The notes beneath the pieces were generated by a model. The model was not told the origin of the DNA and ran no database searches. It was given only the letters and a program-made list of their open reading frames with translations. The position numbers were made by a program, and so were the translations under genes. From Lunularia cruciata (taxonomy: Eukaryota > Streptophyta > Marchantiopsida > Lunulariales > Lunulariaceae), in NCBI GenBank assembly GCA_948567375.1, contig OX419756.1, positions 60,650,333-60,714,332 of the forward strand: DNA of 64,000 bases, in the 5' to 3' direction. Positions 1,182-62,787 of the stretch are shown piece by piece. Every line of letters begins with the position of its first letter. The first letter of the stretch is position 1.

Positions 1182-1271
1182 CTCGGCTTGGATCAGACCC
1201 TTTACCTCAGATCAGATGTCCACCGGAAAAACTGGAGACTTCATCTTCGTCTCCTCTTCCAAACTCAGTTC

Positions 1272-2072: not shown

Positions 2073-2224
2073 CTAGATCTTGAAATCCAAAAACTCCTTG
2101 ATGAGGGCATCCAGCTTGGTATCCGCCTTATTTACACTCTTTGCTGGAGGAGTCATTGGTTTCTTACCCCTACATCTTCAGACTTGTCTTGGCTTTGATT
2201 CTTCTTCAGATTCCAAAGAAGAGC

Positions 2225-7097: not shown

Positions 7098-7115
7098 TCC
7101 CCATCAGCGGTGCCA
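7098..7115 (-). other. Primer binding site of element A1
   Basis: Immediately inside the LTR end the minus strand reads ATTTT followed by TGGCACCGCTGATGGGGA. This resembles the TGGCGCCGTTGCCGGGGA-type site reported for plant Athila/Tat-like elements and usually attributed to an Asp-type tRNA (recollection). Copies A3 (16538-16555) and A7 (31228-31246) have the same site, which fixes the LTR 3' boundary. Confidence 0.8.
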
Positions 7116-7791
7116 AAAATCATATGACAACCCGGCAAATATCACTTTTGTGGTAATCGGGTAAGTAAAGTTTGTTCCCGCAGAGATACGAGTCAAAATT
7201 GGTTAAATACAAAGCAAAGTAACAATTTCAGTTCTTCTTGGTTGTGTCTTTAATCTCTCAGGTAGAAACCACACCCAGAAGAGAGTAACAAGCACTGACT
7301 CAAAGTCTTGTCACAAATTCACACTCCTTAATCACAACTCCATCAAATATTTCCAAAAAATCTTGATTGTGATGATTCAGGCTCTCCCAAAAATGGCACA
7401 TCATTGCAAAACAACTTCGCCTCAGAATTGTGTTCCCCCCCTCCACTAAAGGCACAACTTCCTTGATTGAAATTGCTTCACATCAACTTCGCATTGCACT
7501 CACAAATGCAGAATACTACCAACACTACAATTCCTCTCAGATATGTCAAGGCATTACTTCAATTGCACTTCACTCAGGATCAAACACACAGAATGAAGAT
7601 CAAGGCTACGGAATCCAACATCCAACAAGCACACTGACTTGCACTTCGAATTTCTCCAAACACTCACAAACACAAGTACAACGTTGATACTTGGAATCAA
7701 GCTCAAGCGACGAGCACTGCTTCATAGCACTTTGCTTTATCTATTCTCAGAAATAATGAGCATTGAACAACAATTCTCTACAAATGACACT

Positions 7792-7799
7792 CTTAAATA
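7792..7799 (-). promoter_or_regulatory. Probable TATA box of the A1 LTR
   Basis: The minus strand reads TATTTAAG about 120 bases after the end of LORF. The same element, TATTTAAA, sits at the matching place in A6 (21699-21706), A8 (44648-44655) and A9 (62109-62116), and TATTTACA in the A8 3' LTR. Conservation between diverged copies supports it as the U3 promoter. Confidence 0.65.
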
Positions 7800-7915
7800 G
7801 TGAACAAATCAATAGTTCTAACAATTATACCATTCTACAACAACTTTTCTAACCTGCAGATCCGAAATGACAATGCACCTCTTCATATCTACCTCTTCAA
7901 ATCTCAAAACTGTTA

Positions 7916-10353: not shown

Positions 10354-10902
10354 CTCTCTTGCTTCTCATTGTGTCTCTATTTCAGTCTTGCGACTTCTCC
10401 CTTACACACTAACGCATTTCCAACTCAATTTCCCTTCCCACGATCACCTACAAGACGACTTCTCAACGGCAAAGGAAAATTGCTTGACATTTCTTTGTTG
10501 CAAGCTCGATTTTTATAGAGTTGCACTTTCTTTGTCTTTCTTCACTTCGAGTTTCTACCGATAAATCACACCTCTTGCATGCACCTGTCACTGTCAATCA
10601 AACTTTGCGTATATAGGCCGCTAATTTTGAACGGTCTCTTCTTGAATTTCTTGCTCCGACAAAAGGTTGTTAGACTGACTTTGCCTTGGGTTGAGCTCCC
10701 CCCAATACAAAGACTCCTTACTTTGGGTTGTATGTTGACAGGGCATTTTTGAGTACTTTGCCTTATGACCCAAAGTCACTTTACTTTAGGTTTCATCCCG
10801 AAGACTCTTTTCTTTGCCTTCTTTGGCCATATAGGCGCAATCCGACTTCTCTATACACTTCTTCTTCTTTATTTTGAAAAAACAAAAAATGTGGGCACCA
10901 TA

Positions 10903-16562: not shown

Positions 16563-16910
16563 TGTGACAACCCAACAAGTATCACTTTTGTAGTAATCAC
16601 CAAGTAATAATGGTTCATTCCTATAGAGATATGATTTAGAAATGGTTAAATGCAAAGTAAAATGTCACAATTAGTTCTCCTTTGTTGCATATCTAATCTT
16701 TCAGGTAGAAACCACACCCAAGAGAGAATAACAAGCACTAAATTTTCAGTCTTGTTGCAATAACATGTGATCCATAATCACAATTCATCAATCTCTTTCC
16801 AATTCAACTTTGATTGGGATGATTCAGTTCTCCTAAAGAAAGCTACTTCAATGTAAACAACTTTGCCTTGAAATTGTGTTCCACCCCTCCATTGAAGGCA
16901 TAATCAGTGA
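16563..16910 (-). mobile_element. Element A3 LTR fragment (R-U5 end)
   Basis: Matches the last 350 bases of the A1 LTR on the minus strand, ending GTTGTCACA at 16563. At about 16911 it is joined to the U3 side of an oppositely oriented LTR (A4), so the two are fused back to back. Confidence 0.8.
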
Positions 16911-19900
16911 AGGACTATAATTAAGATTTTGACAAGGAAGCGTTGCAATTTCTAGAAGATATCTTATTCCTATCCAAAGCTGTCTTAAAGGAATGCAAAC
17001 TACAAGCACGCAAGAAGAGCGGGTTAGAATCTCAAGTTTGCTCTTTTAGAAATAGAGAGTAAGGAAGCACACAATGGCCCCAAAGGGAAATAATAGAGTG
17101 AGGTGAGAGCTCTTGCAATTGGTTGATTAGATGTAGTGGTAAGGATCAAAGTCTTGACCAGACTTTGTATCACATTTCTAGCCTGGAACTAAAATTTGAG
17201 CTTTCCAAGTTTCATTGCAGCTAGCAATTGCAGAGACGGGCCCAAGCATGAAGGAAAGAGAGGAAATCTAGCTTGAGGGATTGAGTCAGATTGGAGATTA
17301 GTCCTAGAGAGAGGAGTAGGAGGAGTCAAATTCTATCAAAAGTGTGAGTCTTCGGAAGAAACTATTGAGATGACAAATTCTTTTAGTATACCTTGCACCA
17401 AGAACAAGTATAAGGTGGATAGTTATATAGACCTATCACCCAGGGAGATTGCTAGTGTGATAATGGCTATGTTTATGCTAAATTGGACAACCTATGTAAT
17501 GATGCAATAGGCGGTGTTCTTCTACAAGATGTTTGCAAGAGAAGTGATAGATTGGGTGAAGTGTTTGCACTAACGAGTCGGGTAAATGATTATTAGTTGA
17601 AGAATGGATATACCATCCAACTACTTTGTACCCTTTGCAACCCACTTCTACTTTGGATTAAACCTACTTAGCTTGGAGGAGAGAGGATGGATGATGTCCC
17701 ACTTTCACCCCAACTTACAAAGAGAAGTAGATGGGGATGAACAATATTACATTAAGCGGGTGTGAGAAGGCAATGACTACTAACTCAAGGGTAGGAAGGA
17801 GAGGATAGTGTTAGTAAGCATCCCCATGCCAAGAAAGAGAAGTAGACCCAAATGATGAATAACATTAGTATAGCTACAAAAGATACAAAGGTTGAATCTA
17901 AAGCCCGCACCGATAGAAGTGAAGGAATTGTCTTTGGAGGAAAAATCAAAAGGAAAAACTAAGTTGAAGTGTGAAGACTTACAAGCAAAGGAAGAGGTCA
18001 TGATGTATAGTGGAGAGTCTAGCAGAAGAAGTGAATGAGAGCCCAAATTTCAGCAATCGGGAGATGAGGTTGCTGGAGAAGAAGAGCGGGAGTTTACAAG
18101 GCAATTAAATGTATGGGAGGAGATGAGCCGTGTATGGAGCTGCCTACAGTCAAGTTGGAAGACAAATGAGCAAGAAAGGCTGCCTTGGTATTTCCAAGGG
18201 CAACAAGATCAACGAGAAATGCTCTAGTTGCAGGCCCAAGCAAAGTTGAAGATGAAGAGGAGACCTCATAAGGCATGATGATGAAGATACAAATATCACA
18301 TCTTTGGGGTAAAGCACCAACCAAAGAAGTGCCTACCAAAGATGAAGACATAGGAGATGATGAAGGAAGATACATTGGAGTCGAGTATCTATCAAAGATC
18401 ATGTGTCCTTTGTTGGTGCAGCTATAGCAAAAGAAAGTGGAGCTGAAGAAGAATCATCCGGGAGTGAAGGATGAGTTGGAAGTAGTAAGGCAATGGAGTC
18501 AAGAGACCTTGGAGTTAAGAAGTAAGCTAACACAAAGAGAGAAGGAAGCCAAAGAACTTTGGGCTGAAGCAGTTCTTTGGAAGAAAAGCTTGGATACCTT
18601 GCAGGAGAACTTTGTGAAGCATGGTGACAAGCTGAAAGTGCAAAAGTTGTTGATCAAGAAGATGAAGCATGATGTTGCTGACACAAGGGTAGAAGTAATA
18701 CACTCAAAGGCAATTGCAGCAATGATGGAGCAAGAGCTGGAGGGTCTAAGGAAGAGTGCTATAGAGAAAGATCAGGCCTGGCAAAGAGAGTTGGCAGATA
18801 GACATTGGGAGGAAGATCTATTGTAGAATTTGTTGAGGAGTGTAGAAGGTCAACTAGTCTAGTATGCAGAAGAGAAGAAGGCAGTCAAGGTGGAATTCAA
18901 GGATGAGCTGATGATGTACCAGAATGAATTGGAGGTAGAGCAAATTCAGGAGAAGGTAGTTCCGAGTATGGAGTCGGATGCAATAGGAGCAGTTGTGAAG
19001 GAGTTGAAGGTGATGTTGAATATTGATGTCAAGATCAAGTTATAAGAGCCTGCATGAGGCTGCATGAATTAAAGTTGTTGGTGTAGGAGACAAGAAGAAG
19101 GAAGGTGAAGGATGTAGACTTGAACAATCTTCTAATTTTCTTGAGAGATTGAGTAGATAGGAAAATGTTAGACGTAGGAGATAATGTCTATCTCATATTA
19201 AATCTAGTTAGATCAGACTTAGATGAGTTTTGTAATTAGATGAATATGAATAAGAAGTTAGACATTATAGAAGTAGGAGTGCAAGTGTCTTCAAGTGATT
19301 TACTTGAGACATTAGGAGAGAATGGGTTTGAGAATGAGAATGCAGATAGGTTAGCTCTCATTCCAATTTCAGTTTACATTGAAGAAATAGTAGATGAAAA
19401 AGTAGCTATAGCTTAGTGCTTGTCATTTTAGCTTAATTCCAAGTACCAATCTTGTGTGTGTATATGAGTGTTTGGAAAATTTTGAAGTGAAATTCATTGA
19501 GCTTGTCAGATGTTGGTTTCCACAACTCTAATTGCATTTTGTGTGTTTGATCCTAAGTGGATAGCAATCAAAGCAATTCCTTGATGGATCCATAAGGAAT
19601 TGTAGTGTTGGTAGTATTTTGCATTGGTAAGTGCAACATAAGGTTGATGTGAAGCAATTTCAATCAAGGAAGTTGTGCCTTCAATGGAAGGATGGAATAC
19701 AATTCTAAGGCAAGGTCATTTTGTGGTGAAGTAGCCTTCTTTGGGAAAATTTGAATCATCACAATCTAAGTTTGTTTGGAAAGATTTGATGAATTGTGAT
19801 TATGGGTGTGATTTTATTGTGAATAGACTATGATCAATACTTGTTACTCTCTTTTGGGTGTGGTTTCTACTTGAGAGATTAAAGATGCAACCAAGAAGAA

Positions 19901-20008
19901 TTAATTGTTACATTTTACTTTGTATTTGACCATTTTTGACTCATATCTCTATGGAAACAAACTTTACTTATTGACTACCACAAAATTGATACTTGTTGGT
20001 TTGTCATA
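16911..20008 (+). mobile_element. Element A4 LTR, 5'-truncated
   Basis: The plus strand is colinear with the A8 and A9 LTRs from about 360 bases inside the LTR to the end (GTTTGTCATA at 20008). It contains LORF copy 2. The stretch holding the LORF C-terminus and the TATTTAAA promoter is deleted near 19412, where LORF sequence joins R sequence directly. A remnant of the primer site follows, then gag. Confidence 0.8.
17074..19412 (+). pseudogene. LORF copy 2 (in the A4 LTR)
   Basis: Start at ATGGCC 17074, matching the ATGGCCTTGAAAG start of copies 4 and 5. The domain region reads SDWRLVLERG, then AVFFYKMFAREVIDWVKC, then FVPFATHFYFGLNLLSLEERGW, with several stops. The longest clean part is coiled coil at 18437-18826 (about 129 residues, heptad-like, rich in Glu, Lys and Leu). 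Its C-terminus is deleted. It shares the start, domain order and coiled coil with copy 1. Confidence 0.7.
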
Positions 20009-20266: not shown

Positions 20267-21585
20267 GTGGTCCACTTCTTCTTTTTTGTTCTATTTTGAA
20301 GAAGAAGTGTACAAAAAAATTTGTATTGAACCCGAATGACATTAAAGATGTAGAATTGTGTCTTTGGATTGAAACCCAAAGTAAAGTGACTTTGTGTCAG
20401 GATAGAAAGGCTCAGATCAGACTTGTCATAGAGAAACTTGAAGTAAGAAAACTTCACTTTAGGGTGATCAACCCAATGCAAGGATAGCATAACAACTTTC
20501 CTTTGGATTTTTCAATCAAGAAAGTACAAGTAGGAAAATGGCTAAGGTGCAAACAACTAAACTTGATAGTGACAAGATGAACTCATGTAAAAGGTGTGAT
20601 TTTTTAGTGAAGAGTGACAGAGGAATGATCACACAACAAAGAACTATAAAATTAAGACTTTGTTGAGGGGATTTTGAAATGTCACACAAGTATCCTAAGC
20701 CATTGAGTAGTTGACCCGAAGGAGTGCTTGTAGAAAAGCCATCTGATAATTTGATGTTTAACAATCCTAAAGGAGTTGGGATCTCAAGACCAAGAGATGG
20801 TAGAATTATCTTCCAACTACCATGAGTTAGAGATTGCATGATGCCAAAGAAGGGTGAGAAGAAGAGTCCCTCACTCATAGTGAGAAATATGGTGATTTGA
20901 ATGTTAGACATCATAGCCAAGATCAAAGTTTTCAATAGACTTTGGATCACTTTTCTGTCCTAGAATTGGAACTTGAGTTTTCTAGGGTTCATGGTAGAAG
21001 TAGCTTTGAGTGATTGTGAGGAGAGACTTGAGAATGAAGGGAAGCAAGGAAATCCGGCTCAATGGACAGAGTTGGATTGGAGATTGGTGCTGGGAAGAGA
21101 GGCTGGTGAGGAAACTATGGTATATTCCTCAAGAAAGGAGAGCCTATGAAGGAGATTGACAAAATCCACAATAACTTCATTGCGTTGCGTATGAAGAATG
21201 GGTATAAAGTTGATGCCTATTGGGATCCAAGAAGGTGAATTATTGTCAATGTAATGATGGCACTCTTCAAGCCTGATTGCACCATGTATGTGATGAAGGA
21301 CAAAGTGGTGTTTTTCCATCAAATGTTTGCAAGAGTGTCTGTAAATTGGGTAAAGTGTTTTCACCAAAGAATGTGGCAGATGGTGTGGTGCTGGAGAGAT
21401 CAAACTGCTCCCCACTACTTGGTACCATTTGCCACATATTTCTACTTTGGTTTGAACCTGATGAAGGAGATAGAGTGAAGAAAGATGGGATCTCACTTTC
21501 ATCCAGATCTATGAAAAGAAGTGGATGAGGACAAGCAGCAATACATCCAACATATCCAAAGTAGTGATGAGCACTATGCACTTGC
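20267..21585 (+). mobile_element. Element A5 LTR fragment (U3 start)
   Basis: Begins TGTGGTCCAC at 20267 with the T-rich tract and GAAGAAGAAGTG found at other family A LTR starts. It runs through the LORF N-terminal half and then, near 21585, joins the minus-oriented A6 LTR. The far half of A5 is missing. Confidence 0.75.
20841..21585 (+). pseudogene. LORF copy 3, N-terminal half (in A5)
   Basis: Starts MPKKGEKKSP at 20841, parallel to MGGGKKNS of copy 1 and MRGKKRSPS of copy 4. It continues with RLWITFL, then KVVFFHQMFARVSVNW and HYLVPFATYFYFGLNL. Stops and frameshifts are present. It is cut off at the inverted junction with A6 before the coiled coil. Confidence 0.7.
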
Positions 21586-24583
21586 AATCAAAGCAATACA
21601 TTTTAATACTTGAAATTAAGCTGAAATGATGAGCATTGAGTTATAGCACTTTGCTTTACACAACTTCAAAAATTTTTAGTACTAAATAGCAACTACACTT
21701 TAAATAGACAGAGCACTTGATAGTTATCTAATTACATCCCGTTCCTAACCATCTCCATATCTAAAATGGCAATCCACTTCTTCATATTTGTCAATCCAAA
21801 TCTCAAATTTGTTACAGATCCAATCCAATGTCTACTTCTTCTTTGGCTTCTACACCTGAATGTGTGGCTCCTAACTTCCTTCATATCCTACACTTTGGGT
21901 CTATATATAACTGCTATTTCTTCTTCAATTTCTATTCTATCTTTAGTCTGAATTGAAATTGGAGTCATGTCTAGTCTATCTACATCTTTATTCTCTAACC
22001 CAATCTCTTCTAATGTCTCAAGTAATTCACCCAAAGATACTTGCACTCCTACTTCTGTTAATTCATATTGGGTTGCCTTCTTTCCTTTACTCCAAAGCTC
22101 ATTTAACTCACTTCAAGCTAAATCCAATCAAAGACAAACATTGTCTCCTACTTCTAACAACTTCCTATCTACACAATCTCTTAGACAAATTAGAGGATTT
22201 TTCAATTTTACATCTTTCAATTACTTCTTCCTTGTCTCCTACACTAACAATCTCAACTTGTGTAGTCTTGCTTCCTCCAACTAAACTTCAGCCACAGCAC
22301 TAAACATTGCTCTCACTCTCACAATCACTTCAATTACAGTCTTTGACTTACTCTTCTTTTCTTGCTCTCTCTCTACCTACAACTCCTCTCAATACATTTG
22401 CAACTCAATGTTGAACTTTGCTTTCAGCGCTTCCTTCTCCTTCACATATTGACCAAGTTGAACTTCCATGCTTCTGATCAACCTCTCAATCTTTCTTCTT
22501 CTCAAATTCATATTGTCAATTCATGCTCCCATGCTTGATCCTTCTCTACCACCTTTGACTTTAAGCTCTCCAACTCCTACTCCATTATTGCTACAATAGC
22601 CTTTGAATGTATGAGTCCAACTTGAACTTCATCAAATTCCACTTGCAATTTCTTAGTTAAAGTCTTCTACTTCCTTATTTCTTCAGATTGCCTTTCAATC
22701 TCACCACCATGCTTCACAAACTCTCCCTATAGATAATAATCAAAATTCTTCTTCCAAAGTATTGCATCCATCCAAAGTACTTTGGCTTCCTCTTCTTCTG
22801 GGATTAACTTCTTCAACTCTAAGATCTTTGCACTCCAATATCTCACTACTTGCAGCTCATCCGTTAGTTCAAGATGATCTTTCTTCAACTCAACCTTCTA
22901 TTTCTACAACTACAATAAGAACAGACATATGATTTTTGATAAGTCTGCTATTCTACTAATAGCCTCCACTTTTTTATTGTGTTTGTACTCAGCTTCAACA
23001 TGCTCTTTTTCTACTAATGCCTTACCCTGAAGTCATCATCTTCTCACCTTCAAAATAACTTATTCCAAGGTTTCTTTATGTTCCTCAGCTTTAATCTATT
23101 TTGTAGGCACTAGCTATAGACTTCTCCAAACTTCATCCTCATCCCTCATTGGACTTCATCCTTGTTCCTCGTTGGACTTCATCTTGCAGACTTTGTCCTT
23201 GTCCCTCATTAAAATTCCAACCTCAGCTCTTCTCCTTGGTGTTTTATCTCCACCATAGGTAATTCCAAACATGGAATGTCTCCACCTTTCATATGATCAG
23301 TTGCCGCATGGAATTCCTGATCTTCTTCCTCAACATCTTTCTCCACCATGTGTTGAACTTTAGGTTCTCCACCACTCTCGCTGTTGGATTCTCCACTCTA
23401 CAACATGAGCTCTGCCTCTTCTTCTTCCTCTGAGTCTTCTGACTTGTACTCTTCTCCCGACAACAGTTCTTGCAATACCACCTTGTGCCTTGGGTCTACT
23501 CTTTTTATCTTTTGTGGTTGTACTGGTGACACCATTTCTTCTGGTTGGTTTGGCTCTTTGTCTTCAAAATGGTCACTACCATTTTCTTCTATTGTCCCAT
23601 CTTAGCAAAGTGGTCATCATTACCTCTAAATTGATGGATGTACTACTACTCTTATGCATCTACCACTCTCCACAAATCTAGGTGAAAGTGAGAAACCATC
23701 TTTTGTCTCTTTATTGTACTTAGAAAATTCAACTTGAGGTAGAAATGCACTACAAATGGCACAAAGTAATGAGGCAGAAATTTTTCTCTCCAGATCTTGA
23801 TCATTTGCCTTGTTTGCTGGTGAAAGCACTTTGCCCAGTTCAACTTTTCTCCTACAAACATTTGATGAAAGAACACTACCTGGTGCTTCATTACATAAGC
23901 AATTCTCTTGGGCTTGAAGATCACCATCATCAATTTGACAATACTTTGCCTTATTGGGTCCTAGTAGGTGTCCATCTTGTAGCCATTCTTTGTATGCAAA
24001 GCATTGAAGGAATTGCATACTTTTGCGGTCTCTTTTGCATACTCTCCCTTCCCATAAAATGTGACTTTGGATTCCTCACCAGCCTCTTCCCCATGACTAA
24101 TCTCCAATCAGACTGTATCCATTGAGCCGGATTGCCTCTCTTTCCCACTTCCTCTAGACCATCCTCACAATTACTCATAGTTATTTTTGCCATAAAACCT
24201 AGAAAACTTGAGTTCTAGTTTTAGGCCAAAAAGGTGATCCAACGTCTACTCAAGACTTTGATCCTTTCTGTGATAATCTAAGCTCCAAACTGCAAGATTC
24301 CTCATTGCAAGTGAAGGACTCCTCTTCTTGCCCCTCATTGGTATTGTGCAATCTCAAACTCTAGGTCGTTGGAAAATTATCCTCTTGCTTGGACATGAAA
24401 TCCTCATTCCCTCTAGATTCTTGAAAATTAAACTCTTGGTTGGCTTTGTGATATACATTCCCTTGGGACAACTATTCCGTGGTATAGGATACTTGGGTGA
24501 TATTTCAAAAATTCCTCAACAAAGTCTTAACCTCATAGTATTATGATGAATGGTCATTCCTTATTCTCTCTTCACTTGATAAT
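21586..24583 (-). mobile_element. Element A6 LTR, main part
   Basis: This is a minus-oriented family A LTR with LORF and TATTTAAA (21699-21706). Its R-U5 end is missing at the 21585 junction. Element C (24589-30226) is inserted within its U3, and the remaining U3 start continues at 30232-30564, ending (in minus sense, starting) at TCTGGTACCCAC. Between 22300 and 23380 the frame is heavily broken, with no long open stretch. Confidence 0.8.
21812..24338 (-). pseudogene. LORF copy 4 (in the A6 LTR)
   Basis: Start ATG at 24338 (MRGKKRSPSLAMRN); end near TAA at 21812-21814 after EEVDIGLDL. Domain motifs include QSDWRLVMGKR, KHQVVFFHQMFVGEKLNW and HYFVPFVVHFYL. The acidic linker and coiled coil follow but carry many stops and shifts. 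Its start and end agree with copies 1 and 5, which supports a single ancestral frame of about 810 codons. Confidence 0.7.
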
Positions 24584-24588
24584 CATTT
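24584..24588. repeat. Target site duplication, left side of element C
   Basis: CATTT before the 5' LTR pairs with CATTC (30227-30231) after the 3' LTR, 4 of 5 bases identical, as expected for a 5-bp duplication made by a Ty3-type integrase. Confidence 0.75.
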
Positions 24589-30564: not shown

Positions 30565-30569
30565 TTGTT

Positions 30570-39345: not shown

Positions 39346-39413
39346 TCATCCTTTGAGTAACGATTGTAGACGCAGGAGTTGCAGAAATTGGGAGTATTGC
39401 CAACATAGGGAAG

Positions 39414-43400: not shown

Positions 43401-43546
43401 GAATCATTTGCACTTGTATGGAGTGTTGGATCTCTTGGGTCTCTTGGGTTTTGAAGGATCAAGGAGATGCAATGAATGGTTAATAAAGACCAAAAAAACC
43501 ATTAGTATTATGGTAACAAAAAACTACACAATTTGATCAAAAGAAG
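40433..43546. other. Intergenic host-type DNA, no gene recognised
   Basis: AT-rich with no convincing frame. A possible poly(A) signal AATAAA is at 40778-40783, in range for a long 3' UTR of the proline-rich gene but unproven. A small cluster of GTACATG repeats lies at 41140-41175. The short minus-strand frame at 43070-43258 shows a Ser-rich start and no family. Confidence 0.4.
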
Positions 43547-44527
43547 ATGAGTCGAGGAGAGCGGGAGTTAGTAGAGCTTCGTAATGATGTAGAGCTGAGG
43601 AGAAAGGAGATTGAGAGTCTAATGAGGGACATTGCAAAGAGAGGCAAAGCCATGGCAAAGCAAGAAGAAGATCAAAAGGAGCAACTAGTGAAGTCTGAGG
43701 CCTTGCGGGCAAAAGTGCACGATACACGCATAGAAGTTATTCATTTGAAGGCCATGGCTGCTATTATGGGTCAAGAGTTAGAGAGTTTGAAGGCCAATGC
43801 AGCAAAGAAAGATCAGGCTTTGCAACGAGAGTTGGCCATGCATGATAGAGAAGAAGAACAATTGCAAGGGTTGGTCAGAGGAATGGAAGAACAACTTTGG
43901 CAGAGTGTGAAGGAGAAAGAAGCGATGAAGGCTGAGTTGGAAGATGAAGTAAAGATGTATCAGGAAGAATTGTTAGCAGAGAGAGAGAAGTTACAAATGT
44001 CAAGACAAGATGCAGGCAAAGACATCATTGTAAGAATGAAAGCAATGTTAGGGACGATGTTTGAAGTCCAGTTGGAGGAAGTAAGACTGCACGAGTTAAA
44101 GTTGTTAATGCAAGAAATGAGGAAGAAGAAAGCAAAGGACATCAAATTGAACCAGTTGTTGATTTGCTTTTGAGATTGAGTAGATAGGAAGATATTAGAA
44201 GTAGAAGACAATGTGTGTCTTAGATTAGACTTAGTACATTTGGAATTGGAGAGACTTTGTAGTTTTATGAGGTTGGGGACGAAGTCCGAAGTAAGAGAAG
44301 TAGGAGTGGAGGTGTCTTTGGATTTAGCACTTGAAACTTTAGAGAAGAGTAAGTTGGGAGATAAAGAGTTAGATAAGTTACCCACTAGTGCAATTGTAGT
44401 TTGTAGTGAAGAAATAGTAGAAATAGATGAGTTAGGAGTAGAATAAGGTAGACCCAAAGAAGGAGAAATACTCAAAGGAACATTGCGATTGGAAGCCAAA
44501 GTAGAGGTAGACATCGGATCGGATTAG
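43547..44527 (+). pseudogene. LORF copy 6, coiled-coil part (A8 5' LTR)
   Basis: This is the best-preserved coiled-coil region: an open run of 208 residues with heptad-like Leu/Glu/Lys spacing (GQELESLKANAAKKDQALQR, then REEEQLQGLVRGMEEQ). Two TGA stops occur close together at about 44171 and 44177, then the same frame continues (KILEVEDNVCLRLDLVHLEL) through a TAA near 44444 to VEVDIGSD and TAG at 44525-44527. The N-terminal domain is missing because the LTR is truncated here. The same C-terminus ends copies 1, 4 and 5. Confidence 0.75.
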
Positions 44528-44647
44528 GACCAATTTTGAGATAGGAAGAGGTAGATATGAAGAGGTGCATTGTTAGTTTGGATCTCCAGGTTGTTAGAGT
44601 TGTTAGGAAGTAGTTTAGGGAGTTAGATAACTGTCAAGTGCTCAGCC

Positions 44648-44655
44648 TATTTAAA
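44648..44655 (+). promoter_or_regulatory. TATA box of the A8 5' LTR
   Basis: TATTTAAA inside CCTATTTAAAGGAGGC, about 120 bases after the LORF stop codon. The wider block is also present in A9 at 62109. Confidence 0.7.
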
Positions 44656-45325
44656 GGAGGCATTTGCAGTATGTTGTTGTTTAGTATTCATTTTCCCAAG
44701 AATAGATAAAGTGAAGTGTTGATTTCATTGTTTGTTGCTTAAGCTTGATTTTGATTATCAACTCTGTGTTTGTGTTTGTGAATGTTGAAAGAGTTTCAAA
44801 GTGCAGATTAGTGTGCTTGTTGGATGTTGGATTTTGTAGCCTTGATCTTCATTCTGTGTGTTTGATCTTGAGTGAAGTGGCAATTGGAGCAATGCCTTGA
44901 CAGATCTGAAAGGAATTATAGTGTTGGTAGTATTTTGCAGTTGTGAGTGCAACACAATGTTGATGTGAAGCAATTTTGATCAAGGAAGCTGTGCCTTTAG
45001 CGGAGGGGTCAAACATGATTCTGAGGTGAAGTCATTTTGCAGTGAAGTGTTGTTTTGGGAGAGACTAAATCATCACAATCAAGATTGTTTGGAAAGATTT
45101 GAAAGATTTGTGATTATGGGTGACAAATTGTCTGATGAAACTATGAGTTAGTGCTTGTTACTCTCTTCTAGGTGTAGTTTCTACCTAAGAGATTAAAGAT
45201 GCAACCAACAAGAATTGAGATTGTTACTGTTTGCTTTGTATTTGACCAATTTTGAATTGTATCTCTGCGGGAATGAACTTTACTTACCCGATTACCGCAA
45301 AAGTGATATTTGTTGGGTTGTCACA

Positions 45326-47239: not shown

Positions 47240-48694
47240 ATTCTTTTTCCAATGACAACATACATTGTACAAGTAAGGAAGGGAGCTTCACATTTTAATG
47301 TGGACTTGCTATCCAGGTTGGAAACTCAAGACCAAGAATTGGAAGTCAATGATTGGTTTCTTGATAAAGAGCTTTATCACTTAATGGCAATGCAAAGTAC
47401 AAGGTATGCGGCAAAATATCATTATCTGAATACTTACCATTGTCTTGAGGGATTGGACCCAAAGCAAAGGGCAGTCTTCCTCAAGAAGATGGGACTGTAT
47501 CAGCTAAAACACAACATTTTATTTAAGATGGGCAAAGACAAAATACTTTGGAGATAGTTAGAGGCATACAAAGTTGGAGTAATTGAGTCCTTACACTCCA
47601 AAGCATCGAGAGGACACTATGCCCTGAAGAATACTATAAAGAAGACTCTTTCATCAAGGTATTGGTGGCCTATGATATATAAGGATACTCATGCCTAAAT
47701 ACAAAGTTATGATGCCTACCAGCAAATAAGAAAGTCGACGGCTACTTCCTAGTGGCCTTTGAGACTAATTTTGCCATTGGCTGGGTCCCTATTTGAGAAA
47801 TGGGGCATTGATTTTGTGGGTCCAATTCAAAAAGTGACCTGATTCACAAGGAAGAGATACATCTTGGTGTGCATTGATTGTGCTACCAAGATGATTGAAG
47901 TTGAGGCAACTCAAAGAGATAATGCAGAAACAATTGCAAAATTTTTCTTCCAAAACATCATTTCATGTTACAGATGTCCTTTGGAATTGGTCATTGATCA
48001 AGGGACTCATTTTTTGAACTCCATGGTGGAAGTGTTAACCAAGTACTTCTAGATAAACATCAAAAGATGACTCCTTACAATCCAAAAGCAAATGGACTAA
48101 TGGAGAAGGTCAATAGATTGTTATGCAAAATTTTGAATAAGATGACAAGCAATTATGCCTATGACTGGAACACAAAGTTATTTATAGCTTTGTTGGCATA
48201 TAGAATGACTGAAAAGATTACCACCAAAAAGACGCCTTACTTTTTGACATACAAATTGTATCTTGTTCTACTAGTTGAATTTGAAGTACCGACATATTGA
48301 ATTCTCTATGAAGACCAATTGTCTGAAGAAGAAAGCCAAGATCTTTGATCCATCAATTGATGTAGTAAGAAGAGAAAAGAGACAATGCAATGCAAACCAC
48401 AAGGGAGGTACAAGCACATTGGAAGGTCAGGCACAATAAGCAAATCAAGCTTGTTGTTGTTCAAGAGGGTGATTTGGTGTTGTTATATGACAATTGCCAA
48501 ATATTTTTTCCAAGCAAGCTGCATCTAAGGTGGATGGGGCCCTACTGTGCTATGAAAATTTATGAAAATGGCTCTATTCAACTTGAAGACCTAGAGAGCA
48601 ATCCCTTTGCCACTCAAGTGAGCAATTGGAGAGTTAGAAAATATTTGACCACTAACTCGGCCTTGTATATAGAACCTGAAGTTGATGTTCACTA
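47240..48694 (+). pseudogene. Element A8 RNase H tail and integrase
   Basis: The segment starts with the RNase H end (VRKGASHFNVDLLSRLE). The integrase zinc site is HSKASRGH followed by IQSYDAYQQI, where the two expected Cys are both Tyr. Catalytic positions can be seen as GIDFVGPI (Asp), LVIDQGTHF (Asp) and YNPKANGLMEKVN (Glu). The C-terminus has LRWMGPYCAMKIYENGSIQL and NWRVRKYL, the Athila/Tat-like wording, with no chromodomain. Several stops and at least two frameshifts are present. It ends just before the polypurine tract. Confidence 0.85.
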
Positions 48695-48709
48695 GGACAC
48701 TCACATTTG

Positions 48710-48719
48710 AGGGAGGAGG
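48710..48719 (+). other. Polypurine tract of element A8
   Basis: GAGGGAGGAG followed by TA and the LTR start TGTGGTACCC. It is placed exactly as plus-strand priming requires and so confirms the LTR 5' boundary. Confidence 0.85.
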
Positions 48720-49596
48720 TATGTGGTACCCACATTTTTATTTTTTTTTAGTTTTAAAGAAGAAGTGCATTGGTAAAGCCAAAGGAGGGCTAAACAGGGA
48801 AGAAACATGAAGAATCGTGTGTTTGGCATAAACCTGAAGTCAGCCTCAAGTCAAAGTCCAAAGGATTTGGGTTGGAAAAAATGAAATATGAAGAAGAGGA
48901 CTTCATATTGGGTACCGCAACCTGATCCAAAGATCTTGTAACTAACTTCTTTGGGTTCTGCCAGTCAAGAAAGTACATGGGAAGAAAGTGACTACCTCGG
49001 ACCATGATGTTCTTGAAAGTGACAACAAACAAACTCATAGAATTGGTGAGTAACACGTAGAACCAACTAAAGAATGACCAATCAGCCAAGACTTATAAAA
49101 TTGAGAGTTAAGAGAGAAAGCGCTGCAATGACTAGACACTACCTTGTTCCTATTTAAAGTTGACCCAAGGAATGCAAACTACAAATATGCAAGAGGAGTG
49201 GATTAGAATCTTGAGTTTGATCTTTCATAAGTAGAGAGTGAAGAAGCACACAATGGCCTTGAAAGTGAGTAAGCAAAGTGTGGTGAGGGGTCTTGCAATG
49301 TGTAGATAAGATGTAGTGGCACAAATTAAAGTCTTATCAAGGCTTTGTATCACATTCCTAGCCTAGAATTGGAATTTGAGTTTTCCAAGGTTCATGGTAG
49401 AGATTGCCGCTAGTGATTGCAAGGATGGGCCAAAGCATGAAAGGAAGAGAGGATATTCTGGCTTGATGGACTGAGTTGGTTTGGAGATTAGTCTTGGGTA
49501 GAGAAGGAGGAGGGATAGGAGGTATCACCTTCTATTGGAATTGTGATGCATCAAAGGAAACTGCCAAGGTAAGGAATTCCTTCACTAGACCTTGCC

Positions 49597-49601
49597 CCAA
49601 G
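49597..49601. repeat. Target site duplication of the C solo LTR in A8
   Basis: CCAAG here and CCAAG at 50026-50030 are identical and flank the solo LTR exactly. Confidence 0.95.
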
Positions 49602-50025
49602 TGTAACAATATGGATTTTAGCAATGAAGTTAGTCAGGCTTACAAAGTAGCACATAAGACAAATTAGCCTAGAATATTCCAGAAGTATCTAGGAAGCTTC
49701 TTGGGAAGCTTCCTGGCTAGCTTAGCTTGCACCTCAAGTAAGTAGCTTCTAGAAGCTTCCAACTAGCTTAGCTTGCACGCCAAGTAGGCGGCTTCTAGAA
49801 CAAAGTTTCTTGAGAAGCTTCCTAGTTAACTTGGCTTGCACTCTAAGAAAGCGGCTCGAGGAAGCTTCTTGAGAAGCTTCTTGAAAAGCTTCTCAAGGGC
49901 CTTGTATGTTACCTATAAATACCAAAGCCAAAGCTCATGCTAGGCACTTGGAGGTTTCCCACATTCAAGTGTCCCAATGTGAGTTTCCATTCTCCTATTT
50001 CTCTCCTCAGTCTCGGTCTTTTACA
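49602..50025 (+). mobile_element. Solo LTR of family C, 424 bp
   Basis: Starts TGTAACAATATGGATTTTAG and ends CTTTTACA; same length as the LTRs of element C but more diverged. It keeps TTCTAGAAGCTTC and the TATAAATA box (near 49915). With a perfect 5-bp duplication it is a clean recombination-derived solo LTR. Confidence 0.95.
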
Positions 50026-52845
50026 CCAAGAATGGGTATAAGGTGGATAGTAATAGAGACCTAGTGCAAAGAGGGATTGTGAGCGCAATGATGGCTATGT
50101 TCAAGCCAGAGCAAACCACCTACGTCAAGATGTAGCATGCAGTGTTCTTTCACCAGATGTTTGCAAGAGAGGTGGTGGACTGGGTGAAATGTATGCATCA
50201 GAGTGTGGGGCAGATGATCATTGGTTGGAGAATGGATATGGAGCCTCACTTCTTCATACTCTTTGCAGCTCATTTCTCTTTCAGGCTGAATTTGCTGCCT
50301 TTGGAGGAGTGAAGTAGGATGCGGTCCTACTTTCACTTGCACAAGGAAGTTGATGCGGATGAACGCTATTACATGGAGCGGGTTCATGAAGAGGATGATT
50401 ATCACATGAAGAGTTAGAAGGAGAAAATAGTAGCAATGGATATCTCTTTTCCCAAAAGGTGAAATAGACCTAAAGGATGAATTATGTTTGTATAGCCTCA
50501 AAAGATACAAAAGCTTAACCTAAAGCCAGTGCCGGTGGAGGTGAAAGAATCAACTTTGTAGGAGGAATCAGAGGGAGAAACCAAGTCAAAGAGAGAAGCC
50601 TTGGGAAGAGAAGAAGAGTTCACACTATGGAGTGAGGAATTGAGCAGTGGTAGTGAAGGAGAGGCTGAAGTCTAGCAATCCAAAGGAAGGGTTGTGGAAG
50701 CAAAGAAGCCAAGTTTGGAGATGTCAACATTTGAGAGTAAGTGTGAGAAGGAAGAAGAGGTAGCCTTGGTATGTCCAAGGGTTTCCAAGGGGAAGAGAAG
50801 TACTCAAGTCATCCTTGTTAGATCAAGCAAAGCTATCATCAAGGAAGAGGAGGAGAGATTGGATGGAGAAACACTTAAGATACAAAGATCGCATCTTTGG
50901 GGTAAGGCACTAATCAAAGAATTACCTACCAAAGGCAAAAAAAGCAAAGATAGCAAAAGGAAATGTGATGGAGTGGAGTATCTATCAAAAATTGTGTGTC
51001 CTCTATTGGTGTTTTTTCAATAGAAGAAAGTGGAGATGACGAGCACTAATCTAGACATGAAGGATGAAATAGCGGTTGTGACAAAATGGAGTGAGGAGAC
51101 CTTGGTGTTGAGAAGCAAGCTAGCACAAGTAGAGATGGAAGCCAAAGAACTTTGGGTGGAGGCAGTTCTTTAAGGTAAAAACTTGGAAGTGGTGAGGGAG
51201 GACTTGGTGAAGTGTAAGGAGGACTTGGTGAAGAAGATGGCATTGGTTGAGGTATTGAAAAGGGAAATTTTTTATGCACAAGTGGAGGTGGTACATTCAA
51301 AGGCAAGTGAAATAATGATGGAACAAGAATTGGAGAGTATGAAGCAGAGAGCAGCCAAGAAGGACCAAGCCTGGCAATGAGAGTTAATAGAGCATAGTCG
51401 GGAGGAAGAACAATTGTGAGGATTGCTAAGAGGAGCGGAAGATTGTCTAGTTCTAAATAGGCAAGAGAAGAAAGCAATGAAGGTTGAGTTTGAGGATGAG
51501 TTGGTGATGTATCAAAATAAGCTGGAGGAGGAAAGAAAGAAAGAGAAACTAGAGCCGGGGATGACGTCGGATGCAGTGGGAGCAATGGTAAACAAGTTGC
51601 AAGTGCTGCTCAATACAAAAGTTGAGGGTAAGTTGGAAGAGGCAAGATTGCATGAGTTGAAGTTGTTGGTGCAAGAGACAAGGAAGAGGAAGGCAATGGA
51701 CACTAAGTTGAATAATCTCCTGATTTGTTTGCAAGATTGTGTAGATACAAAGATACTTGAGGTAAGAGACAATGTCTATCTTAGATTAGATCTTGTTAGA
51801 TCAAACTTGGATAAAATTTGTAGGGAGATGAAGTTAGAGAAGAAGTCCAAAGCGGTAGAAGGAGGAGTGCAAGTGTCATTGGGTGATTAATCAGAGACAG
51901 TAGAAAAGAATGGATCAGAAGATAATGATGTAGATAGAGTAGAGAGGAGTGTAATTATATTTTGTAGTGAAGAGACCCAAAGAAGGGGAAATTCTTGAAG
52001 GAACATCAAGTTTGGAAACCAAAGTTGAGGTTGATATTGGATCAAAATAGTAACAAATTTGAGATATGAAGAGGTAGATATGAAGAAGTGCATTGTCATT
52101 TTGGATCTACAGGTTGGTAAAGTTGTTGTAGAATGGTGTAGTTGTTAGTAATTGTCAATACTCTATCTATTTACAAGAGGCATTCACAAGATAATGTTGT
52201 TCAACATTTTTTAATTTTGAAGATAAATAAAGCAAAATATGTTTTTTAGTGCTCATTGCTTGAGCTTAATTTTGTGTATCAATCCTATGTTTGTGTTTAT
52301 GTGTGTTAGGAGAAGTTTGAAGTGCAAGTCAATGTGCTTGTTGGATGTTGGATTCCACAATGTTGATCTTCGTTCAGTGTGCTTGATCTTGTGTGAAGTG
52401 TAATCTAATCAATGCCTTGACAAATTTGAGAGGAATTGTAGGGTAGGTAGTATTTTGCATTTATGAGTGTAGCATAATATTGATGCAAAGCAATTTTGAT
52501 TAAGGATGTTGTGCCTTCAGTGGAGGAGTGGAACACAATTATGAGGCAAAGTTGTTTTGCAGTGAAGTAGCCATCAATTTAAATCATCACAATCAAGATT
52601 TGTTTGGATAGAATTTGATAGAGTTGTGATTATGGAGTGCTAGTTTGTGACAAGACTGTGAGCAATGCTTTTTACTCTCTTTTGGGTGTAGTTTCTACTT
52701 GAGAGATTAAAGATGCAATCAAGAAAAACTACATTGTTACTGTTTGCTTTGGATTTGACTATTTTTTGCTTGTATCTCTATGGGAATGAACTTTATTTAC
52801 CTAATTATTGCAAAAGTGATACTTGTTGGGTTGTCACAACTAAAG

Positions 52846-58094: not shown

Positions 58095-58292
58095 TCCACT
58101 CCTATGACAGTTATAGAGGATATTTGGGAGCCAAATTTGGGACCCAAGCTTACAAGAGAGGAAAGACAAAGAGTTTGGAGGTTCTTGTGGAGCTACACAA
58201 ATTTCTTTGCCTTTAGTATAAAGGATTTGGGTGCTCTGAAAGGACTTGGTATTCAGATCAAGCTGACTAGCAATGCACCAATTTTCCAACAT
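58095..58292 (+). pseudogene. Element E pol fragment before reverse transcriptase
   Basis: The frame reads PKLTREERQRVWRFLWSY, then FFAFSIKDLGALKG and IQIKLTSNAPIFQ, the standard segment in front of Ty3 reverse transcriptase. It is cut after APIFQ by solo LTR A9 and resumes at 62788. Confidence 0.8.
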
Positions 58293-59263
58293 TGTGGTAC
58301 CTATACTTTTTCATTTTTTTGAGTTTTACAGAACAAGTGCATTGGTAAAGCCAAAGGAGGGCTAAACAGGGAAGAAACACAAGTAATCGTGTGTTTGGCA
58401 TAAACTCAAAGTCAACCTTGGGTCAAAGTCAAAAGGACTTGGATCGGACAGACAAAAATAAAAAAACAATGATAGAGGACTTCATATTGAAGGGGCACCA
58501 CCTGATCTAAAGAACCTACAACAACCTTTCCTTGGGATCTGCCAATCAAGAAAGTATATGAGAAGAAAGTAACTACCTCGAGACCAAGATGTTCTTGAAA
58601 GTGATACAAAACAAACTCATAGAATTGGTGAGTAACACAAAGGAGCAATTGAAGAATGACCAATCAGCAGAGGACTATAAAATTAAAATTTTGAAGAGGA
58701 TGCACTGCAATGTCTAGACTCTATCCTGTCTATATTCAGAGTCAACCCAAAGGAAAGCAAATTATGAGTATGCAAGAGGAGTGAGTTAGAGTCTCAAGTT
58801 TGATCTTTTGTAAGGAGAGAGTGAGGAAGCACATGATGGCCTTGAAAGTGAATAAGCAGAGTGCGGTAAGGAGTCTTGCAATCTGTTGATTAGATGTAGT
58901 GGCAAGGATCAAAGTCTTGTCAAAGACTTTCCATCACATTTTTGGCCTAGAACTTGAATTTGAGTTTTCCAAGGTTCATGGTAGAAATTGCCGCTAGCAA
59001 TTGCAAAGATGGGCCCAAGCATGAAGGGAAGAGAGGATATTAGGCTCAAATGGACTGAGTCAGATTAGAGATTAGTCCTAGGAAGAGAAGAAAGAGAGGT
59101 AGGAGGTGTCATCTTTTATCGTAAGTGTGATGCTTTGGAAGAAATTGCCAAGGTGATGAATTCTTTCAATAGACCCCGTACCACAAATAGGTACTAGGTG
59201 GATAGCTACAAGGATCTAGTGCATAGGGGGATTGTGAGCATGATGATGGTTATGTTCAAGCCA

Positions 59264-59267
59264 GAGC
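59264..59267. repeat. Target duplication of the B solo LTR
   Basis: GAGC here and GAGC at 59959-59962 flank the LTR. Comparison with the uninterrupted A8 copy (AAGCCAGAGCAAACC near 50110) confirms the insertion point. Confidence 0.9.
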
Positions 59268-59958
59268 TGCGAGCCAGCCTGTCTATCACTCAAGATGAAC
59301 CTCTAATGGCTATTAGGGTAGCGCACTATGGACTAAGAAAGCAAGGAACCCCAACTCCATCATACTCCTCCAAGGCTACCACTCCAAGACTCAAGACATT
59401 GCTCACTAGAGAATTCAATGAGAGAGAGAGAGATAGTGGCAAATGAAAGGATGATGGGTACATCCTCACCCCTAGTTTATATACTTGTGAAATAGTTATG
59501 CACCAAAGTTACTAATTACTAGAGTAACTCAAGTTACTAGGCTAAAAATCAAGTCAAGTCAAAAATTATAAAGGAATATCCATCCACATGGGCATATTCC
59601 ACTAAGCAGGTGATCTTATCTTGACCCAACCAATAAGTCAAGGATTCTTTCACATGGGCTATCCTTGGACTATGGAAGAATCCAAAACAAAAAGGCTTGT
59701 GGGCCCAAGAGTTCTCAACTCTTTCCTCAAAACACCTCAGAATAATACCAATTCAACACACTAGAATCCAAAATAGTGATGCTCATCTTTTCCATTTCCT
59801 CTAAAGTAAGGTCTCCACTATCTTAGATATGACTAACTTTATCTAATCATGACTAATATAGAACCATCTTTTATCTCTATATAAATAATATCTCTCAAGT
59901 ATTTGTAATACTAAGCTAAATATCATAATACCACACACATGCACAAATGGGTGTTACA
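59268..59958 (-). mobile_element. Solo LTR of family B, 691 bp
   Basis: The minus strand begins TGTAACACCCATTTGTGCA at 59958 and ends GGCTCGCA at 59268. It matches the B1 LTR (14742-15431) along its length. It is nested in LORF of solo LTR A9. Confidence 0.95.
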
Positions 59959-62108
59959 GAGCAAACCACCTATGTAATGATGTAGCATGTAGTTTTCTTT
60001 CATCAAATGTTTGTAGGAGAGGCGGTGGACTAGGCAAAGTGTTTGCACAAACAAGTTGGGCAGATGATCACTTGTTGGAGAATGGACATGTTGTCCCACT
60101 ACTTTGTCCTCTTTGCAACTCACTTCTACTTTGGGTTAAATTTACTGAGCTTGGAGGAGAGAGGATGGATGTGGTCCCACTTCCACTCCAATTTACCTAA
60201 AGAAGCAAATGTGGATGAACGATATTACATCAAGTGGGTTTATGAAAGCAATGATTATTATCTGAAGAGTGAAAAGGTCAAGATAGTGGTAGTAGATATT
60301 CCCATGCCAAGGAAGAGAAGTAGACCCAAAGGACAAATTATGATGGTGTAGCCCTAGAAGTTACAAAGACCCAATCCAAAGCCCACATCGGTAGGAGTGA
60401 AGGAATCAACTCTGGAGGAAGAATTAGAAGGAGAAACCAAGTTGAAGGAAGAAGCATTGGGAGCAAAAGAAGAATTTACAGTGCAGACCAAAGAGTCAAG
60501 TAGCAGTAATGAAGGAGAGACGGAAGTTCAGCAATTGAGAGAAGGGATTGCTGAAGAAGATGAGCATGAGTTCCATGATCCAATCGACCACATGGAAGGT
60601 AGAGACAAGCCGTGTCTGGAGTTACCAATAGACAAGCTAGAGGATGAGCAAGAAGAAGAAGGTGCCTTGGTATTTCCAAGGGCAGCTAGAGGGAAGAGAA
60701 GTACTCAAGTTGTCATTGTTGGACCGAGCAAAGTTGTTGGCAAAGAGGAAATTTTGGATGGCAAAACTTTGAAGATACAAAGATTGCATCTTCAAGGTTA
60801 GGCACCAGCCAAAGGCCTACCTACCAAAGATGAAGACATAAGATATGGTGAAGGAAAATATGAGGGAGTTGAGTATCTATTGAAGATCATGTGTCCTTTG
60901 TTGGTGCTTCTATAACAAAAGAAAGCAAAGATGAATTGTTATCATTCTGAAGTGAGGGATGAGTTGGCCGTTGTAACAAAATAGAGAGAGGAAACTGTGG
61001 AGCTGAGGAGTAAGCTAATACAAGGAGAGAATGAAGCCAAAGAAATTTGGGTGGAACCAGTTCTTTGGAGTAAAAGCTTGGATGCCTTGAAGGAGAACTT
61101 TTCAAAGTGTAGCAATGAATTGAAGGAGCAGATGGCATTGGTTGAGATAATGAAAAGTGAAATTGTTGATGCACAAGTGGAGGTTATACATTCAAAGGCT
61201 TGTGCAACAATGATAGAGCAAGAGTTAGCAAGTTTACAAAAGAGCACAATAGAGAAGGACCAAACCTGGCAATGAGAATTAACAGAGCATAGTCATGAGG
61301 AGGAACAATTGCGGGGATTGCTTATAGGAGCTGAGTTGAGGATCAATTAGTCCTATATAGACAAGAGAAAGAAGCACTGAAGGCTGAGTTTGAGGATGAG
61401 TTGATGAATGAGCTGGAATGAATTGGAAGTGGAGAGAAGTAAGGAGAAGGTAGTTCCAAGTGTGGAGTCCGATGCAATGGGAGCAATAGTGAAGGAGTTG
61501 AAAGTGATGCTCAATATTGAAGTTGAGATTAAATTGGAGGGAGCGAGATTACACAAATTGAAATTGCTAGTGTAGGAGACAAGAAAGAGGAAGGCAAAGG
61601 ACATTGAATTGAACAATCTTTTGATCCATCTAAGAGATCAAGTTGATAAGAAGATGTTAGAGGTATGAGATAATATGAGTCTTAGATTAGATTTAGTAAG
61701 ATCAAATTTAGATAGACTTTGTAGTGAGATGAAAGAGAAGAAGAAGTCAAAAGTAACAAAGATGGGAGTGCAAGTGTCTTTGGATCAATTACCTAAGACA
61801 TTTGAGAAAATTGGGTAAGAGGATAAAGAAGTAGATAGATTACCCATGAGTGTAATTGTAGTTCAAATTGAAGGGATAGTAGAAATAAAAGATGTAGGAG
61901 TAATATTAGAGAGACCCAAAGAAGGGGAATTTTTGAAGGAAACATCGGGTTTGAGAGCCAAAGTTGAGGTTGACATCTGAATGGACTGAAAACAGATTTG
62001 AGATTAGAACAAGTAGATATGAAGAGGTGGTTTGTCATTTTGGATCTATAGGTTGGTAAAGTTATCATAGAATGGTATTTTGTTAGATAATTTTTGACGT
62101 GCTAAGCC

Positions 62109-62116
62109 TATTTAAA
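62109..62116 (+). promoter_or_regulatory. TATA box of solo LTR A9
   Basis: TATTTAAA inside CCTATTTAAAGGAGGC, about 135 bases after the end of LORF, identical to A8. Confidence 0.7.
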
Positions 62117-62787
62117 GGAGGCATTTGTAGTGTTCTATTGTTTAGCATTTACATTTTCAAGTTGATAAAGTAAAGTGTTGTATCTTAGTGCTCATCATTT
62201 CTGCTTAATTCCAAGTATCAATCCTATGTGTGTGTTTGTGAGTGTTGGGAGAATCTCAAAGTGCAAGTTAGTGAGCTTGTTGGATGTTGGATTCCATAAC
62301 GCTAGTCTTCATTCTATGTGTTTGATCTTGAGTGAAGTGCAATCTAAGCAATGCCTTGATAGATATGAGAGGAATTATAGTGTTGGTAGTATTTTGCATT
62401 GGTAAGCAAAGTGTAGGGTTGATGCAAAGCAATTTCAATCAACAAAGTTGTGCCTTTAGTAGAGGGATGGAACACAATTCTAAGGTAAGATTGTTTTGTA
62501 GTGAAGTAGCCTTCTTGAGAAAATCTGAATCTTCACAATCAAGATTTTTTGGAAAGATTTGATGGAGTTGTGATTAAGGAGTGTTAATTTGTGATGAGAC
62601 TATAATCAATGCTTGTTACTCTCTTTTGGGTGTGGTTTCTACCTAAGAGATTAAAGAAAAACTCAAGAAGAATTAAAGAGTTACTATTTTACTTTTATTT
62701 GACCATTTTTTACTTGTATCTCTGTGGGAATAAACTTTATTTACGTGATTACTACAAAAGTGATACTTGTTGGGTTGTCACAAACAT

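Follow-up and report, generated by a model that had tools for sequence, protein, structure and literature searches.

A 64,000-base stretch of the Lunularia cruciata genome (contig OX419756.1), hereafter the window, holds several copies of an old, multi-copy Ty3/Gypsy family whose long terminal repeat (LTR) of ~3.8 kb contains an ancestral protein-coding frame, here called LORF. That LORF lies inside the LTR is well supported by three kinds of boundary: a target-site duplication around one copy (A9), a primer-binding site after a second (A1), and integrase sequence with a polypurine tract (PPT) before a third (A8). Codon-level comparison of the copies likewise gives good support for LORF having coded for protein in the past and having been kept by purifying selection as subfamilies diverged. 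Plant LTRs are usually treated as regulatory, non-coding DNA, and a solo LTR is usually regarded as a remnant without content. This view would fail if a conserved protein gene sits in the U3 region of a plant Ty3 LTR, which would provide a plant parallel to the sag gene of mouse mammary tumour virus (MMTV); solo LTRs, a common end state of such elements, could then continue to influence the family or the host.

A9 starts with TGTGG and ends with GTCACA, and the AACAT duplication around it is exact on both sides. When the flanks are joined with one AACAT, an unbroken pol-like frame runs across the junction (...NAPIFQH/PYQYSDMERALI...); because this frame is continuous, A9 is a clean insertion and a real solo LTR within the pol gene of another Ty3 element. 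The first-pass annotation, which was made from the sequence of this stretch, had described these ends and the perfect duplication in another element's pol, and both are exact. It had also stated that A9 holds nothing except LTR sequence, which does not stand, as a foreign 691-bp unit is nested within it and splits LORF. A9 measures 4,490 bp in total and 3,795 bp after removal of this insert and its extra GAGC. The insert, 89.5% identical to 14742-15439, belongs to a third family of ~690-bp LTR-like units (59268-59958, 14742-15439 and 63663-64000 on the minus strand; 89-94% identity), of which one copy is cut by the window end and the A9-nested copy shows the 4-bp duplication.

The other two boundaries enclose LORF from different sides. 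The start of A1, an uninterrupted 5' LTR, cuts an RT-like frame (RT, reverse transcriptase; judged by eye). After the end of A1 comes TTTTTGGCACCGCTGATGGGGA, with the primer-site sequence TGGCACCGCTGATGGGGA, which we take to be of the tRNA-Asp type, starting a few bases on; LORF in A1 thus lies upstream of the primer site. Two other LTRs, ending at 16563 (minus) and 31220 (plus), are also followed by sequences resembling this site. In A8, a 3' LTR, the LTR starts upstream of LORF and 26 bp after the integrase stop, with the PPT GAGGGAGGAGG (48709-48719, followed by TA) in between, and since the gap is only 26 bp there is no room for a LORF-sized open reading frame (ORF) between pol and this LTR. 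The duplication of A9, for its part, encloses LORF with no pol of its own. The earlier proposal that the gene resides in the LTR itself, and not between pol and the 3' LTR, agrees with all three boundaries, and the two further near-complete LTRs that it listed, 7123-10902 (3,780 bp) and 48722-52838, do have the same content, with the primer site after the first and the PPT before the second. A8 contradicts the opposing arrangement, that of a single LORF located between pol and a short 3' LTR.

LORF-family LTR sequence covers 19,935 bases of the window. The LTR-end 30-mer has six matches at ≤3 mismatches (0 expected from 100 shuffles) and the LTR-start 18-mer four, against a mean of 0.04 in shuffles. 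With the A1 and A9 frames as queries, LORF was found whole or in part in seven of the eight recognised LTR copies or pieces (A1, A3, A4b, A5, A7, A8 and A9, but not A2; Table 1), a count that excludes a 122-bp LTR-end duplicate after A8. This duplicate, at 52841-52962 (+), adjoins the end of A8 and repeats the terminal ~125 bp of the LTR. The two parts of A5 (20284-21598 and 30566-31220) are joined here as what would be one LTR. A4b probably starts at 30564, beyond a nested chromovirus. This much younger element, at 24589-30226 (+) and apparently nested in A4b, has 424-bp LTRs that are 98.8% identical and carries gag, RT, RNase H, an integrase zinc finger and a chromodomain in long open frames. 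A related foreign solo LTR of 424 bp, with CCAAG on both sides, lies within A8 at 49602-50025.

Features of a Ty3/Gypsy LTR-retrotransposon are spread across several broken copies and comprise LTR ends, a 5-bp duplication, the primer-binding site, the PPT, gag, and weak protease and integrase matches. Integrase comes last before the LTR, and this position is what points to the Ty3 domain order. In the A8 element an rve match at 47843-48049 (E 4.5e-6, 27.3 bits) falls under Pfam's cut-off of 32.6, and the other integrase pieces, including the C-terminus ending at 48695, were identified by eye. The OTA (Tat/Athila) superclade is defined by its RT and integrase phylogeny and by the lack of a chromodomain. 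There was no chromodomain match in the integrase C-terminal piece (48369-48692), and the 26 bp before the LTR leave no room for the additional RNase H after integrase that is a TatIII trait. A long pyrimidine-rich stretch lies between the A7 LTR and the A8-element integrase (45330-46970, +). The A1 element has a zf-CCHC match in its gag (E 9.6e-7, in 1275-2072) and a below-cut-off Asp_protease_2 match (E 0.0076, in 627-1181), and its stretch from protease to RT, where TatII elements have their additional RNase H, was read by eye. Its gag sequence also adjoins A2 and A3, and arrays of 81-bp and 46-bp tandem repeats with open frames of 180-401 codons lie between its primer site and gag (3579-5460, -). 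No RT domain of the LORF family was seen in the window.

The first-pass annotation had put the ancestral frame at about 810 codons. A large ancestral frame is indeed present, and its length in A9, with the insert excluded, is ~816 codons from the ATG at 58836 or ~858 from an upstream in-frame ATG at 58710. Which start applies (58710 or 58833/58836) is uncertain, because 58710-58832 has no clear coding signal. All copies are decayed: the A9 stretch 59959-61977 contains 15 in-frame stops with frameshifts nearby, and the A1 LORF keeps one frame for 689 codons with six internal stops. With this A9 stretch as reference and ungapped codons only, mismatches at codon positions 1/2/3 are 0.26/0.18/0.34 for A9-A8 (632 codons; chi-square p 5e-9), 0.25/0.20/0.33 for A9-A3 (621 codons; p 8e-7), 0.26/0.19/0.35 for A9-A4b (259 codons), 0.25/0.25/0.37 for A9-A1 (158 codons) and 0.24/0.26/0.33 for A9-A7 (171 codons). 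This periodicity, taken in 400-bp bins, fades about where the LORF frame ends, a few short bins within LORF lack it (e.g., 34-35 codons of A9-A7), and the last 0.8 kb of the LTR has none (p 0.66 for A9-A8, 0.75 for A9-A1). Codons with a stop in either copy number 26 of 632 in the LORF frame of A9-A8, whereas the two remaining forward frames have 87 of 628 and 69 of 626; in each of the five comparisons (A8, A3, A4b, A1, A7) the LORF frame has the fewest.

The ratio of non-synonymous to synonymous divergence (dN/dS, approximate) of the A9 LORF is 0.28 against A8, 0.30 against A3, 0.31 against A4b, 0.30 against A1 and 0.38 against A7, values of ~0.3 that are to be judged against the background of arbitrary frames and not against 1, because the method itself tends to give values below 1. 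At synonymous sites the divergence of LORF reaches 0.45-0.51, versus 0.16-0.24 in the 3' part of the LTR, while non-synonymous divergence (0.20-0.22) about equals the latter. The synonymous excess indicates that a large share of the change dates from a time when the protein was under constraint. The amount of non-synonymous change matches that expected from post-insertion decay, which would imply strong constraint in the active period of the family. A chance open frame is ruled out by codon periodicity, dN/dS and stop counts. An antisense gene was also rejected, as the forward frame scores best in the LORF core against A8, A3 and A7 among the matches listed; for A9-A1 the antisense frame is slightly ahead in the 3' part (301 vs 271 bits) and the forward frame ahead in the core (258 vs 142).

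Other observations weigh on the opposite side. Arbitrary frames in the non-coding 3' part already give dN/dS of 0.46-0.93 (four copies, >190 codons each), and for A4b 0.33-0.81 over ~60 codons; A1 and A7 show weaker constraint at position 2 (0.25 and 0.26) than A8, A3 and A4b; the first 41 codons upstream of the ATG at 58833 have no clear periodicity; and no copy in the window retains an intact LORF.

Motifs within the LTR suggest how such a gene may have been expressed. A TATAAA box, P1, occurs at LTR position 384 in A9, 373 in A8 and 386 in A1, with no other TATAAA in the first 579-708 bp of these copies, against a background rate in the window of 0.27 per kb per strand; P1 may be LORF's own promoter. 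A second box, P2 (TATTTAAA), sits ~130 bp past the A9 LORF stop and is aligned in all four copies reaching there (A9, A7, A8 as TATTTACA and A1 as TATTTAAG). It is a candidate promoter of the genomic RNA, and the GATAAAG that follows may serve as a poly(A) signal. Because the TATTTAAA-type box lies downstream of LORF, the conventional, motif-based reading would place LORF in U3, which would extend to ~62140 and be followed by a short R and a U5 of ~0.6 kb. If RNA instead began at P1, LORF would still reside in the LTR, but R would span it and the genomic RNA would carry LORF as its first ORF. The TATAAA at LTR position 373-386 in A9, A8 and A1 fits such a start. However, the four copies that extend far enough have another TATA-type box downstream, with an AATAAA-like motif ~55 bp on as for a short R, and an R of >2.5 kb would be unusual, so we regard a genomic start at P1 as unlikely.

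Just past the LORF stop lies a purine-rich island with pairwise identities of 0.85-0.88 among A9, A8, A7 and A1, compared with 0.53-0.73 in the bins on either side. With low confidence, we suggest that it could be a relic or duplicate of an older PPT. Had priming once begun there, the old LTR would have been ~0.76 kb long and LORF an ordinary 3' accessory ORF. A pattern derived from the island retrieves three of its own source copies and nothing in shuffles, which is not independent support.

Taken as a whole, the explanation that we consider likely is an old Ty3/Gypsy family with a ~3.8-kb LTR carrying an accessory gene, LORF, in U3, with a trans-acting product and an origin by PPT shift. Genomic RNA would start at P2 and carry one LORF, past the PPT at the 3' end, which reverse transcription would copy into both LTRs. 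The LORF mRNA would start at P1 and end at the poly(A) site in R, such that either LTR, and a fresh solo LTR, could form a complete LORF gene. The probable origin of the layout is a switch of plus-strand priming to a purine tract lying upstream of an ORF that formerly separated pol from the 3' LTR, a move that would bring the ORF into U3 in one replication cycle and that offers a suggested route for accessory ORFs into LTRs. More tentatively, and with appreciable doubt, the LTR may be a self-contained cassette of P1, a gene of ~820-860 codons and a poly(A) site, which arose by a PPT shift upstream of a former 3' accessory ORF and left the relic tract after the stop. Were this so, every new insertion would bring in the trans-acting gene twice, and recombination between the LTRs, normally the end of an element's activity, would leave a working gene.

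The predicted LORF protein comprises an N-terminal domain of ~250 residues, a basic patch (PRKRSRPK in A9 and A3), an acidic linker with a net charge per 60-residue window of -17 in A1 and -16 in A9, and a C-terminal half poor in Pro and Gly. In A8, A7 and A1 an in-frame TAG follows a common C-terminus (VEVDIGS or alike). In A1, A9, A8 and A7, between one and three of the C-terminal 60-residue windows per copy have a hydrophobic moment with its peak at 100-104 degrees, and the C-terminal half probably forms a coiled coil. The protein is most likely a trans-acting, self-associating and possibly nuclear accessory factor that would aid expression or integration of the family, a role for which the nuclear product of gene23 of the plant element Grande may serve as a model. 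Promoter, message and protein function of LORF are inferred.

Several observations tell against parts of this explanation. The window yielded no recognisable element that has both its LTRs. P1, P2 and the poly(A) site are identified by motif, and A3 has a 2-base gap at the P1 site. U5 is as conserved (0.73-0.90) as the purine island, and the older-PPT idea draws on that one conserved island. In the protein, A8 has a weak acidic linker (net charge of just -5 in the corresponding part), the remaining C-terminal windows peak off the heptad angle, the AlphaFold model of the N-terminal domain is unusable (mean pLDDT 38), and the proposed function has no homology support.

Searches for relatives of LORF were negative within their reach. 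Among 16 LORF pieces, which matched seven Pfam families in all, no family at E 1 or better was common to more than one piece. LORF as a known Pfam domain was rejected, since each match was weak, involved a single piece and, where a cut-off is given, fell short of it; the best were Mab-21_C (E 0.0026) and COMMD1_N (E 0.002, one open piece). PF10536, PF04195 and PF03078 (plant mobile domain, Transposase_28 and Athila ORF-1, all known from eORFs) were not among the matches of these pieces, nor was the superantigen family among the weak ones, with no direct comparison to sag made. A profile of the N-terminal domain found nothing at E 1 in the PDB by sequence. The full A1 read-through (E 1e-3), the 16-piece alignment (0.01) and the N-domain region (1) found nothing in a protein database of uncertain plant coverage, which makes this a weak null, and an IMG/VR scan with the exact LTR-end 27-mer gave no match. 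Within the window, a distant relative of the N-terminal domain lies at 53745-53461 (-) (profile score 42.5, E 3e-13), with a weak extension to 53942 and no recognised LTR. It may point to a wider family that includes the domain, and possibly to the place where the domain resided earlier.

LORF could also be a passenger, a gene of another mobile element or of the host that landed in an ancestral LTR and spread without helping the element. Such an origin would suit a frame for which no relative was found and the distant N-domain relative without a recognised LTR, but dN/dS of ~0.3 across subfamilies implies a protein in use while the family spread, and we judge a passenger improbable. That LORF is an ordinary env-like or accessory ORF placed after pol and before the 3' LTR, the "3.8-kb LTR" being this ORF plus a short LTR, can be dismissed almost entirely: many OTA elements have eORFs at that position (PMC6317226, available excerpt) and the final ~0.76 kb past the purine island resembles a normal-sized LTR, but the boundaries of A8, A1 and A9 contradict it.

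Of known systems, MMTV offers an accessory ORF in the same place. MMTV is an animal betaretrovirus with an LTR of ~1.3 kb whose sag lies in U3, and promoters in the 5' LTR and env give rise to spliced Sag messages. LORF, placed in U3 by motif, is like sag an accessory ORF wholly within U3, yet it is far longer and belongs to a plant Ty3 element. The published accounts cited here were available as excerpts, to which the comparisons apply. In one, the accessory ORF in the MMTV LTR is the stated reason for its unusual length (PMC3026287). The rice Ty3 elements Retrosat2, RIRE3 and RIRE8 have LTRs of ~3 kb or more and a fast-evolving ORF0 of unclear function (PMC3485330); in that excerpt ORF0 lies upstream of the gag-pol ORF and is not described as part of the LTR, whereas LORF lies upstream of the primer site (A1). 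Grande gene23, RIRE2, Retand and PvRetro13 aORF-3R represent conserved accessory ORFs near the 3' end, in the stretch separating pol from the 3' LTR; for gene23 a promoter of its own and a nuclear product are described, and for PvRetro13 ORF2 an SMC domain (PMC7264820). These ORFs are antisense and internal, while LORF is sense and inside the LTR.

Plant eORFs are found 5' or 3' of the polyprotein, in elements with LTRs of up to ~5 kb (PMC6317226). In the 3' eORF or env-like class the ORF lies between pol and the PPT or 3' LTR, whereas LORF is 3' of the PPT and inside the LTR. As the eORF counts of that account are classed by position relative to the polyprotein, they could hide LTR-resident ORFs. 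A further report likewise concerns antisense ORFs located between pol and the 3' LTR, and its excerpt mentions none inside an LTR (PMC11963269). Gymny of Pinus is an Athila-related family in a large plant genome with many LTR-only derivatives (PMC2633040), here compared by description only; its excerpt mentions no LTR ORF. Four further accounts contain a matching phrase yet, in their excerpts, are unrelated to a plant LTR-resident ORF (PMC4122759, PMC3778962, PMC12037069, PMC12371157). No report of such an ORF was found in the literature searched, as excerpts and with most subscription papers outside its coverage. The suggestion in the first-pass annotation that no plant Ty3 family is defined by an LTR-resident ORF agrees with that literature, from which it is not provable.

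Table 1. Features of the LORF family and associated sequences in the window
Feature	Coordinates	Strand	Remarks
A9, solo LTR with nested 691-bp insert	58293..62782	+	end motifs, AACAT repeats, joined-flank frame
Target-site duplication AACAT, left copy	58288..58292	.	sequence
Target-site duplication AACAT, right copy	62783..62787	.	sequence
Nested solo LTR-like unit of another family, inside A9	59268..59958	.	TG...CA, GAGC both sides; splits LORF
LORF in A9	58710..61980	+	split by insert; stop 61978-61980; broken by stops and frameshifts
P1, TATAAA box, candidate LORF promoter	58676..58681	+	motif
Conserved purine-rich island past LORF stop	61989..62048	+	bin identities in four copies
P2, TATTTAAA box, candidate genomic-RNA promoter	62109..62116	+	alignment
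GATAAAG, AATAAA-like poly(A) signal candidate	62164..62170	+	similar motif ~55 bp after P2 in alignment
A1, 5' LTR, uninterrupted, 3,780 bp	7123..10902	-	LORF ~10350-7931; starts in RT-like frame, ends at primer site
Primer-binding site after A1	7098..7119	-	sequence
gag and protease pieces of A1 element	627..2773	-	capsid-like by eye, CCHC knuckle
A8, 3' LTR	48722..52838	+	LORF ~49262-52038; PPT and integrase directly upstream
PPT before A8 LTR	48709..48721	+	pol stop ends 48695
Integrase pieces of A8 element	47240..48695	+	end just before PPT
A2, terminal 341 bp of LTR	16563..16903	-	primer site next; no LORF part
A3, LTR copy without first ~370 bp	16902..20008	+	LORF 17103-19401; then gag sequence
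A4b, LTR copy	21603..24585	-	LORF pieces 24332-21879
A5, 5' LTR part with N-terminal LORF part	20284..21598	+	LTR end 30566-31220, then primer site
A7, LTR copy with C-terminal LORF part	43538..45325	+	overlaps 218-codon open stretch 43517-44173

The old, nested Ty3 copies of the window suggest a large plant genome. RT-like pieces at 33877-34558 (+), presumably of the non-LTR type given their RQGDPLGG motif, lie downstream of the A5 primer site. A proline/serine-rich open frame of 263 codons at 39357-40148 (+) contains three repeats at 117-bp spacing, and its composition is, by eye, extensin-like or arabinogalactan-protein (AGP)-like.

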